From Cristatella mucedo (Eukaryota; Bryozoa; Phylactolaemata; Cristatellidae), in the NCBI GenBank assembly GCA_009760855.2, contig WPIO01000069.1:1840001-1904000 (forward strand): a stretch of 64,000 nucleotides of DNA, in the 5' to 3' direction. Positions 25,201 to 63,127 of the stretch are shown in pieces; the stretch's first letter is position 1, and each line of letters starts with the position of its first letter. The notes below the pieces were generated by a model. That model searched no databases and was not told where the DNA came from. It worked only from the letters and a program-made list of their open reading frames with translations. Made by a program: the position numbers and the translations under genes.

Positions 25201-28200
25201 TTATTTAGAAGCAAATATTAAGCCTATTCTAATCAGTATTTGCGCCGACTTCTGCACTGTCATTGACGTACACAAGGCGGTGTTAAAACTATTTGGATTT
25301 TAGTTTTAGCAGCTGACAATCAATGTAACCGCTGTTTGTATGAGCCTCACAAATATGTTTTCAAGTTCTAAATTTCTACTGTGCAAGTAACTGAGGAGAA
25401 AAATAAAAAAAGCATCCGGATGTAGGTGAGATGGTGCCAATAAACCGTACGCAGGACCATAATTGCATCAAATTATCAATAGAGAATACTGTCATGTGTG
25501 ACTTGGCGAATAGGAAGTCGGCTTCAGCTGCTATCGCCTTACCGGTTGCCGTAGTGGTCTCGATCATTTGGGTGGGCTTTGAAGTAGATATCAGTGGCTT
25601 AATCGAAGGTGAAGGGGGTTTAGACTGGTCTTTCTGGATATCTGGACCATTCGTTGCTGGCTTGTGGAAAATCTGAGACACGAATTGTATAGCTGGTGGT
25701 GTTGTCGCAGTAACTTTTCCATCCAAGTCAAATTTTTGCGTTGTTTTGGTACCAGCAACCGTGGCCACCGAAGGCGTTCTGGTAGACACGGTGGTGCTGA
25801 CCGGCGCAGTGATAGTCGTCGCCTTTGGAGAAGAACTGGTGACCGCGGCAGTTTTGGCTGTCGTAAGTGTGATTGATGGCTTAGTTGCCTCCTTGACTGC
25901 AGCTTCAGTAAGTCCTGTGTGCGAGGTGTCTAATTCAGTGTTGCCACAAAACCGGAGATTAATAAACGGAGTTCAAAATCTTGAACTCAAAATCTCCACA
26001 ATGTATTGACTCAGTAGATAAATATTCGTCTTCATAAGTTTATAAGAGATTTATTTTCGCTCCAGCAATCGCTGATATCTGACTATACTAAACGGTTTGA
26101 AAAAAGGGTGCAGTTCTTCAATTTTGATTACAACCACATCGAAAGCGCTAGGGCGTTCTCCTTACTGGGAAATATTCAAACTCGGCAGCCAGTCACTTCT
26201 ATCAGGTTAAATCTAGAAAGTCATGGTTGCGGTGTATGTCCGAAAGAGTATGATTGAATTAATTTCTTGATAAACGAGCGGTGATGCAATTTCAAGTAGG
26301 TCAATTAATTGCGTCTTCTCGTTTCTTGCCCGTGCAGCGATATGACACTTTAGATAAGAGTTCATGAGCAGTGCTAACTTAGCATAGCAATCCCGAGACG
26401 AGAAACTCAACGAGACCCTATAACTGGCATTACAACTATGGGCGGATGAACTGTCAATGAAAACCTAGGTAATACACGGCTGCATAAATGAGGAACGCTT
26501 GGACAGCAACCGGCCTACGTACAATGAGCGTTCTGCTAAAGGCGAATGTGGAGAGTCGTCTGCAAATCGCCATCGACTCCAAGCGATGCGTTCCGTATTT
26601 CGAAGCAAAGAACGGTGGCTTGGCTACTGCACGAGCCAGCTCTGAGCAGCTAGAGCAGCTCTAGAGCAGCTCTGAGCTCTAGTGAGCAGCTAGAAAGGAA
26701 GCGTCAATGCCAGTCACGACGCTCAAATGACGAAGAGCCGTGATCTAATATAAAAAAATAGTTCGTCACTCATTGGTTAGCCACCCGTCTTTTTCGCTTC
26801 GCTAGCTTTATAGTTCCAGTTCTACCAACTGACTAAGAGCTAAGCCGTGTCCTCCCGTTTTCCAGCCGCGACTACTCGACTAATTCTTGCTCCCAACGTC
26901 CACTGGGCACCCACATTCTTTGCTACTATTACTATGGAAATTCACGATGACCTTTTTGTTAGCAAGCCGTATATTTTAGTATTTTATATTATATATTGTA
27001 TATGTTTTATTTTATATTATTACATTTTTGTATTTCTAGCCTCGCGGTCTACGAGGATGCAAAAGCTAAACGGTTGCACTCTTCCATTAAAAGCACGAAA
27101 TTATTCTGCTAACAGAGCTGCGGTTCGCTTACGCTAACAGTGTGGCGTTGACCATTTATATTAATTTAGATTAATGATTTCGAAACTTATGTGTTACACA
27201 TCGACGCCACTCGGTGGTTAGAGAGATGCGACTTGGAGAGTGATTAGAACGTACGAGCAGTCCACTACACATTCTAGTAGCTTTCCGAAATACGGAATGA
27301 ACGTCATCGATTACTTAGTCTAGGATATCGCGAACTGTACGTCGAGCAACGTTCGTGAGCTGCTGACGGTTTGACCATTTTCCGTCGAGATATTCACCAT
27401 ATGTGTGATACCTTTAATTGGTTGCAAACACAACTGTAAATGGGGATGCTTAATGCTCTCCCAGTTATCTCCCCTTCGGCTAAGCTAAGCATGGGGCTGT
27501 CACTGCAGCTTCAATGGCGGCCTGGGCATTAGTGCTTGCCAACGCGAATAATACAAAGGTTTAAAGTTAGAAACTGTTTCTACTTTGATTTATATGTTTG
27601 CAACGTCTTCTCCTTCAATAGCAAAATTAACAAACCGAATAAAAAACCTGTCACAGAAGATCCGTTATCTCCATGCGAGTATTAATCACGAATAGAGTAA
27701 ATGAAGGAGCAGAAATACTTGAAACCATTACTCGTTCAAACGTTTAGACTGGACAGATCTAATATCAGCGATTATACTCGTTCACCAAGTAAAATCTTGC
27801 GAGCGTGAACATAGTTACCTTTAACGATGTTCTCTTTCTCATCGGATTTATCTGCAACAGTCAGTCAGTACGGCATTAGAAGCCAACAACGGCTGTGCAC
27901 AAATTGTAAAGCCATGCTATCGCGTTGAACCGTAACCTACCTCCGTTGGGCTTGGATGTGTCCTTGCCGTTGGGCTTATCTACAATAACATTTTCAATTA
28001 AAGTACAAAATCGCGCCATACAAAATGAGCAATCATCCTAACCGTGCCCTAAAAGCGCACATTTTTGGCCAGCACAACTCTAAGAGCACAGTTTTCAGAG
28101 CTTAGTATCCCTCATGCTGCTGAGTCAGCACTACCAAAAGCCCTACGAGTCCAATGCGTTCCTTGCTCTTGTGTTGCCATTGCATCGCCGAAATATTTTA

Positions 28201-63127: not shown

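Follow-up and report, generated by a model that had tools for sequence, protein, structure and literature searches.

A tandem array of microexons lies on the minus strand at 27.8-63.1 kb of the window, the 64,000-nucleotide stretch of Cristatella mucedo DNA (contig WPIO01000069.1, positions 1,840,001 to 1,904,000) analysed here. The array comprises 18 complete triplets of three tiny exons, termed K1, K2 and K3, together with one degraded unit and one partial older unit. It is probably, at roughly two chances in three, the repeat region of one large lophotrochozoan gene for a secreted protein, in which a microexon block has been amplified to give a charged, chitin-anchored product. Support for a single gene comes from a predicted signal-peptide exon, 54 in-frame microexons, CBM14-like exons and a stop codon, which can be read in one phase on one strand. 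An original prediction, made from the letters of the sequence, had proposed a repeating module of symmetric microexons that grows by amplification of intron-rich units and is fused to chitin-binding domains; the sequence supports this proposal, the chitin-binding-type exons sharing both frame and strand with the module. Exon extraction likewise bore out its minus strand, location, peptides and exon lengths of 33, 39 and 33 nt.

The peptides and exons of K1, K2 and K3 were located by a six-frame scan and flank extraction. Each unit measures ~1.81 kb, of which exons occupy 5.8%, close to the 6% first estimated. Head-to-tail matches to the reference unit (38868-40676) span 27820 to 61837; among the 18 aligned units, 15 are 1806-1815 bp long; of the other three, one is shorter at 1599 bp, and those at the two ends are longer (first 2220 bp, last 1912 bp). 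The "about 20" units originally proposed do form a real array, but they are not equivalent: beside the 18 complete triplets, one unit has lost its K1 acceptor and one consists of K2 and K3. Twelve units between 35252 and 58761, excluding the one at 44295, were taken as the core, the remaining six of the 18 being left out as divergent or partial. Pairwise divergence within the core is 0-1.4%. Divergence from the core units is 3-4% for the unit at 44295, 4-5% for the units at 30040 and 31846, 0.8-1.9% for the short unit at 33653 and 10-14% for the two end units (20.5% from each other). The 62967-63186 fragment shares about 67% identity with the core. Young central units and old outermost ones form the pattern that unequal exchange and conversion would produce.

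Across the 12 core units, 46 sites are substituted and 19 carry indels. Many of these indels lie within homopolymers and 17 occur in a single copy, as consensus errors in a repeat would, and real indels are also possible. The core substitutions (35252-58761) are concentrated in two intron stretches, and the ~850 bp holding K1, K2 and K3 contain 3 substituted against 8 indel sites; the scarcity of substitutions there could reflect conversion tracts, constraint or consensus errors. Interspersed repeats of ~120-270 bp are present in the long introns of the 27820-30040 unit and at 62084-62200; further copies of them are numerous across the surrounding 164 kb, and the reference core unit gave no match to them. 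The array is known from one genome assembly, of 572 Mb in 688 contigs. A search of the genomic DNA with a core unit picked up nothing beyond the partial old copy inside the window and left the core copies themselves unreported; because the method skips words common in the genome, a second near-identical array could exist elsewhere. A whole-repeat peptide search of the same genome gave no match but carries no evidential weight, as exons of 11-13 residues split by introns could hardly match.

A total of 59 microexons were recovered, all on the minus strand (19 K1, 20 K2 and 20 K3). Acceptor AG is present in 58 of them, the K1 at 61336-61368 being the sole exception, and donor GT in all 59; both signals are combined with the expected in-frame length in 54. 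K1 measures 33 nt in all 18 usable copies and K3 in 20 of 20, K2 measures 39 nt in 16 of 20, and 14 of the 18 triplets are intact. Phase 1-1, originally claimed for every exon, applies to the in-frame ones, in which a G closing the preceding exon completes the codon of the leading D or G, and fails in four K2 copies of 38, 40, 40 and 41 nt. The description of the splice sites as good suits K1 best: with a generic matrix, the acceptors of the reference unit score 5.3 for K1, 0.7 for K3 and -2.1 for K2, the weakest of the three, and the K1 sites are strong and nearly identical across the 18 usable copies. Furthermore, the oldest partial unit keeps exon lengths and splice sites despite its divergence from the core. 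K1 and K3 are identical at 22 of 33 positions, and 10 of 10,000 codon shuffles match as well or better; this resemblance points to K1 and K3 as old duplicates and to a duplicated 33-nt exon as the likely starting point of the triplet.

The assembled gene model, built from in-frame exons only, encodes 1737 amino acids over 84 kb and is open throughout its 67 exons (1 + 54 + 12). Its predicted parts are, in order, a signal peptide, a 627-residue array, a 242-residue threonine/serine-rich (Thr/Ser) part and 850 residues with ten CBM14-like domains. Exons of 33 nt account for 38 of the 67 and exons of 39 nt for 16 more, which together supply the 627 array residues. Six CBM14-like exons lie inside the window and four beyond it, the last reading into a TAG about 10.2 kb before the window start. 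At the other end, a signal-peptide-like first exon, MAPTSSMRTLLAAFLLVA, was found outside the window at window position 74057-74003, with a donor score of 8.9 and, by eye, a TATA-like element just upstream. This candidate joins the first microexon of the oldest unit, K2', directly in phase 1. The scan that yielded it covered 60-114 kb and phase-1 endings only, and returned one other, poorer candidate at 84470. The 1.2 kb downstream of the stop contain no AATAAA or ATTAAA polyadenylation signal. Another exon could lie hidden within a flanking stretch of N.

The predicted array contains 28% lysine (K), 20% aspartate (D) and no cysteine; 57.5% of its residues are charged, with a net charge of +0.05 per residue. 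Its charges are very evenly mixed (kappa about 0.02), and only 36 of 5000 shuffles of the 35-residue unit were as even. This evenness is kept in the unit at 27820 (17 of 2000 shuffles as evenly mixed), kept less well in the oldest fragment (138 of 2000) and not kept in the unit at 60674 (665 of 2000). Evenly mixed polyampholyte chains are expected from polymer physics to be extended and hydrated. The CBM14-like domains carry a CP.GL.FD motif and six invariant cysteines spaced C-14-C-16-C-10-C-1-C-7-C; relative to the usual pattern of the family, they lack the third cysteine and show a C-x-C instead. Pfam CBM_14 (PF01607) matches nine of the ten domains at E<=1 (best 2.8e-5), and the one PDB structure that a profile of the domains hits up to E 10 is a solved chitinase, at its C-terminal end (6g9c, E 0.0024). 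In addition, a protein search with an 898-aa query (four repeats, the Thr/Ser part and six CBM14-like domains), in which 7991 candidates of 0.55 to 1.75 times the query length were scored, gave one weak match, a wasp CBM_14 protein 28% identical over 27%.

Comparisons among divergent copies favour a coding reading of the exons. Exon identity exceeds that of the remainder in seven of seven pairwise comparisons, with permutation P <0.05 in six (0.0004, 0.0032, 0.049, <0.0002, 0.38, 0.024 and <0.0002); these values carry no multiple-test correction, the comparisons share copies, and those from the short alignments of the oldest fragment mean little. When 164 kb, one stretch of which reads N, were scanned for phase-1-1 microexons with a polar, charged product, 45 minus-strand and 17 plus-strand candidates appeared in all. 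Outside 27.0-62.9 kb no plus-strand candidate occurred, and the minus strand had only the two exons of the oldest fragment; the acceptor cut-off would miss K2-like sites, so that the scan is not exhaustive. A plus-strand reading of the array was rejected on this result and because all matches to the K peptides (<=4 changes) fall on the minus strand.

A number of results, however, weigh against a single functional gene. One of the seven conservation tests is non-significant (P 0.38), and gaps are no rarer in exons than elsewhere (P 0.59-0.98 in seven comparisons). Codon-level purifying selection was looked for and not found: the rate of nonsynonymous differences (pN) falls below that of synonymous ones (pS) in only 8 of 15 comparisons, with small counts, and residues are therefore not individually constrained. 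Three of the 19 core indel sites fall inside the 39-nt K2 where 0.4 would be expected (P 0.0075), the opposite of what coding constraint predicts, though 17 of the 19 are single-copy, as consensus errors would be; none of the 19 falls in the 66 nt of K1 and K3, an uninformative result (probability 0.49). K2 may be decaying, skipped or misassembled. Its four frame-changing indels have a direct consequence: were all 58 usable microexons spliced in as assembled, the frame would close after 91 residues, and these four copies must therefore be skipped or be wrong in the assembly. The gene model has weak points of its own. Phase 1-1 of the downstream exons was chosen rather than forced, being the best-scoring version for eight of the 11 internal ones, tied for one (1205-945) and lower for two (4956-4696 and one at -6477), and the predicted signal-peptide exon with its 10.9-kb intron comes from a scan. 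As for the domains, two CBM_14 scores shown with the curated cut-off (20.6 and 15.2 versus 22.1 bits) are both below it, and CBM_14 reaches E<=0.001 in just one of four domain-bearing frames, again below that cut-off. Pfam FeS also matches three of the ten domains (best 2.6e-4), and two further families match one domain each. No orthologue was found among the 7991 candidates scored with the mixed 898-aa query, which does not establish an absence of relatives.

Part of this damage is what would be expected if the array were a relic or a non-coding amplification. In this view, part of a chitin-binding gene was duplicated in tandem, and its microexons have dropped out of the mRNA or never entered it. 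The loss of frame in four K2 copies, the lost K1 acceptor, the concentration of indels in K2, the lack of a consistent pN/pS difference and the ordinary frequency of exon gaps would all fit. Yet acceptors and donors are almost universally intact, exons are more conserved than the remainder in six of seven tests, lengths are kept even in the oldest copy, and a predicted signal peptide and a stop stand at the two ends in the same phase, so that we regard this explanation as improbable. Better placed, if still short of even odds, is the use of the microexons as alternative cassettes in the manner of schistosome micro-exon genes (MEGs), with few and varying copies entering each mRNA and isoform diversity as the outcome; this is compatible with the same gene anatomy. 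The symmetry of every in-frame microexon, the weak K2 acceptor and the impossibility of full inclusion as assembled speak for it, as does the precedent of removable symmetric exons in MEGs (PMC8293314), whereas the strong, near-identical sites of the 18 usable K1 copies speak against it.

An assembly artefact is somewhat unlikely, though it would account for several oddities. Copy number or frameshifts could be wrong in an array that is longer than most reads, which would be compatible with a real array of smaller or greater length. The units at 40677 and 53342 show no substitutions between them and yet differ in length and in K2; 17 of the 19 indel sites affect one copy of 12, many of them homopolymeric; and indels outnumber substitutions in the exon-holding ~850 bp. 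Nevertheless, the units bear substitutions of their own, and divergence amounts to 10-20% in the outermost ones; distinct units do therefore stand in tandem, even if their number is wrong.

Under the preferred reading of one amplified gene, the minus strand would be read from the signal-peptide exon at 74.06 kb to the stop, with 54 symmetric microexons, then two exons rich in Thr/Ser and finally ten CBM14-like exons between them. The 1.8-kb block with its three phase-1-1 microexons would have been multiplied by unequal exchange and homogenised, each block adding 35 residues. Because each in-frame exon is symmetric, damaged copies may drop out of the mRNA without a frame shift. The sequence, splice signals, phases and divergence between units are observed here, whereas transcription, splicing and secretion are predicted from the DNA, as are chitin binding and the physical role: the CBM14-like domains would anchor the protein on the chitin of a cuticle, tube, shell or gut matrix; the Thr/Ser part may be a glycosylated spacer; and the K/D array could form a hydrated, disordered polyampholyte brush or linker with evenly mixed charges, its length set by the number of blocks. 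The coordinates of the array and of the exons assigned to the gene are collected in Table 1.

Table 1. Microexon array and associated predicted exons, in window coordinates.
Feature	Position	Strand	Details
Tandem array, ~1.81 kb units, 18 complete triplets and one degraded unit	27819..61837	-	
Oldest partial unit	62967..63127	-	K2' 63089-63127 (39 nt), K3' 62967-62999 (33 nt); first microexons after signal peptide in model
Degraded unit	60673..61368	-	K1 61336-61368 (acceptor AG lost), K2 60795-60833, K3 60673-60705
Triplet 1	58761..59462	-	K1 59430-59462, K2 58883-58922 (40 nt, out of frame), K3 58761-58793
Triplet 2	56954..57654	-	K1 57622-57654, K2 57076-57114, K3 56954-56986
Triplet 3	55147..55847	-	K1 55815-55847, K2 55269-55307, K3 55147-55179
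Triplet 4	53341..54041	-	K1 54009-54041, K2 53463-53502 (40 nt, out of frame), K3 53341-53373
Triplet 5	51535..52235	-	K1 52203-52235, K2 51657-51695, K3 51535-51567
Triplet 6	49726..50426	-	K1 50394-50426, K2 49848-49886, K3 49726-49758
Triplet 7	47915..48618	-	K1 48586-48618, K2 48037-48075, K3 47915-47947
Triplet 8	46109..46808	-	K1 46776-46808, K2 46231-46268 (38 nt, out of frame), K3 46109-46141
Triplet 9 (3-4% from core)	44294..44999	-	K1 44967-44999, K2 44416-44454, K3 44294-44326
Triplet 10	42483..43183	-	K1 43151-43183, K2 42605-42643, K3 42483-42515
Triplet 11	40676..41377	-	K1 41345-41377, K2 40798-40836, K3 40676-40708
Triplet 12 (reference unit)	38867..39566	-	K1 39534-39566, K2 38989-39027, K3 38867-38899
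Triplet 13	37059..37761	-	K1 37729-37761, K2 37181-37219, K3 37059-37091
Triplet 14	35251..35953	-	K1 35921-35953, K2 35373-35413 (41 nt, out of frame), K3 35251-35283
Triplet 15	33652..34356	-	K1 34324-34356, K2 33774-33812, K3 33652-33684
Triplet 16	31845..32546	-	K1 32514-32546, K2 31967-32005, K3 31845-31877
Triplet 17	30039..30739	-	K1 30707-30739, K2 30161-30199, K3 30039-30071
Triplet 18 (about 13% from core; interspersed repeats in long introns)	27819..28787	-	K1 28755-28787, K2 27941-27979, K3 27819-27851
Thr/Ser-rich exon 1, 372 nt, phase 1-1	25543..25914	-	predicted
Thr/Ser-rich exon 2, 354 nt, phase 1-1	22879..23232	-	predicted
CBM14-like exon 1, phase 1-1	20938..21183	-	predicted
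CBM14-like exon 2, phase 1-1	16205..16459	-	predicted
CBM14-like exon 3, phase 1-1	12800..13069	-	predicted
CBM14-like exon 4, phase 1-1	7614..7868	-	predicted
CBM14-like exon 5, taken as phase 1-1	4696..4956	-	predicted; weak acceptor, fourth-scoring choice
CBM14-like exon 6, taken as phase 1-1	945..1205	-	predicted; tied best choice
Four further CBM14-like exons and stop	beyond window start, contig down to 1829819	-	predicted

Outside the window, a second gene or cluster lies on the minus strand at 110-146 kb (window coordinates). CBM14-like stretches number at least 22 there, and three linker-like exons of 78 nt (..VVRPP.GI.DRPP..PSD..SSK) occur at 114.3, 117.9 and 120.1 kb. An assignment of the CBM14-like exons at 110-145 kb to the 5' end of the array gene was dropped once the signal-peptide exon had been found at 74.06 kb; we infer that these are two separate genes. 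Among matches over 400 bp, the neighbouring gene showed no long, recent array at the DNA level. Between exons of the array gene, the minus-strand open frames 23635-24495, 8631-9197 and 6215-6808 resemble, by eye, reverse transcriptase fragments of the long interspersed nuclear element (LINE) type; 23635-24495, the only frame of the three scanned, gave no Pfam match at E<=0.001. A 21-kb mitochondrial contig carries ND2 and COII (by eye) and the large-subunit (LSU) rRNA on the strand opposite to the other genes recognised, as well as a ~0.8 kb stretch in two direct copies and one inverted copy.

The closest counterpart in layout is SmPoMuc of Schistosoma mansoni, in which a signal peptide precedes tandem genomic units of ~1 kb that each contain a single 27-bp exon (PMC2576457; PMC4015677), at most 20 units per gene and intronic parts >94% identical (PMC2576457). 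The predicted array gene has the same anatomy, with a signal-peptide exon followed by tandem units bearing tiny symmetric exons, and in both, short protein repeats have grown by amplification of intron-rich units. The likeness is one of anatomy. SmPoMuc belongs to a schistosome and the array gene to another lophotrochozoan lineage. Moreover, SmPoMuc has one exon per unit and a 9-residue repeat, whereas three exons per unit and a 35-residue K/D module are found here, and the chitin-binding domain that is part of the predicted gene is not mentioned for SmPoMuc in the portions of the sources drawn upon. Davis et al. in 1988 reportedly described tandemly repeated exons encoding 81-base repeats in Schistosoma. 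We consider it possible, but rather doubtful, that a SmPoMuc-like triplet array of variable number evolved independently in a lophotrochozoan to make a near-perfectly charge-mixed, chitin-anchored brush, with length varying between individuals through unequal exchange and with frameshifted copies skipped thanks to exon symmetry, so that growth is buffered against mutation.

Schistosome MEGs encode secreted products and have short symmetric exons between long introns (PMC10526429, PMC8293314, PMC4015677, PMC3961193), which can be removed without disrupting the frame (PMC8293314). The same exon anatomy is seen here, together with a predicted secreted product. MEG exons are, however, mostly of 15 bp and vary along the gene, while the present array has amplified a block of three exon types. 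MEGs are defined by mainly symmetric exons of <=36 bp; microexons supply 627 of the 1737 residues of the present model. As a class, MEGs are described as seemingly confined to schistosomes (PMC8293314), whereas the COI gene here is lophotrochozoan, its best named matches among the 120 listed of 7999 being molluscs (82% at best), with nemerteans, annelids and a phoronid further down; one entry without a taxon name reaches 95%. In a quick tree of this COI and 37 selected rows from that listing, the sequence pairs with the 95% entry on a long stem (0.22), and the pair is weakly placed (support 79).

Intragenic multi-exon tandem units are also known from LPA KIV-2, with 5.5-kb units containing 342 bp of exon in 1 to >40 copies (PMC4378929). 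Near-identical tandem multi-exon units within one gene are likewise found here, gene continuity being predicted; unlike the present microexons, the KIV-2 exons (160 and 182 bp) encode a folded domain. In nebulin, an eight-exon block occurs three times inside the gene with variable copy number (PMC7109182); this too is an exon block repeated within a gene, but a larger one, with few copies and in a muscle protein.

If the present reading is true, more than 50 symmetric microexons, organised as a three-exon block outside schistosomes and fused to chitin-binding domains, would suggest a repeated origin of such genes beyond parasitism. The array would also provide a natural system for studying the splicing of exons that are only 33-39 nt long, nearly identical and present by the dozen, and the setting of a structural protein's length by the number of block copies. 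Micro-exon genes are reported to be difficult for automatic annotation (PMC10526429), and more of them may be hidden for that reason. The original prediction had seen no known counterpart; SmPoMuc and LPA KIV-2 provide precedents for the layout, while no description of the triplet layout or of its fusion to chitin-binding domains was found in the limited open-licence literature, where the peptide itself was not searched for. Altogether, within that literature, the principle of amplified intron-rich microexon units is already known, and the new part is the triplet block, its polyampholyte product and the fusion to chitin-binding-type domains.

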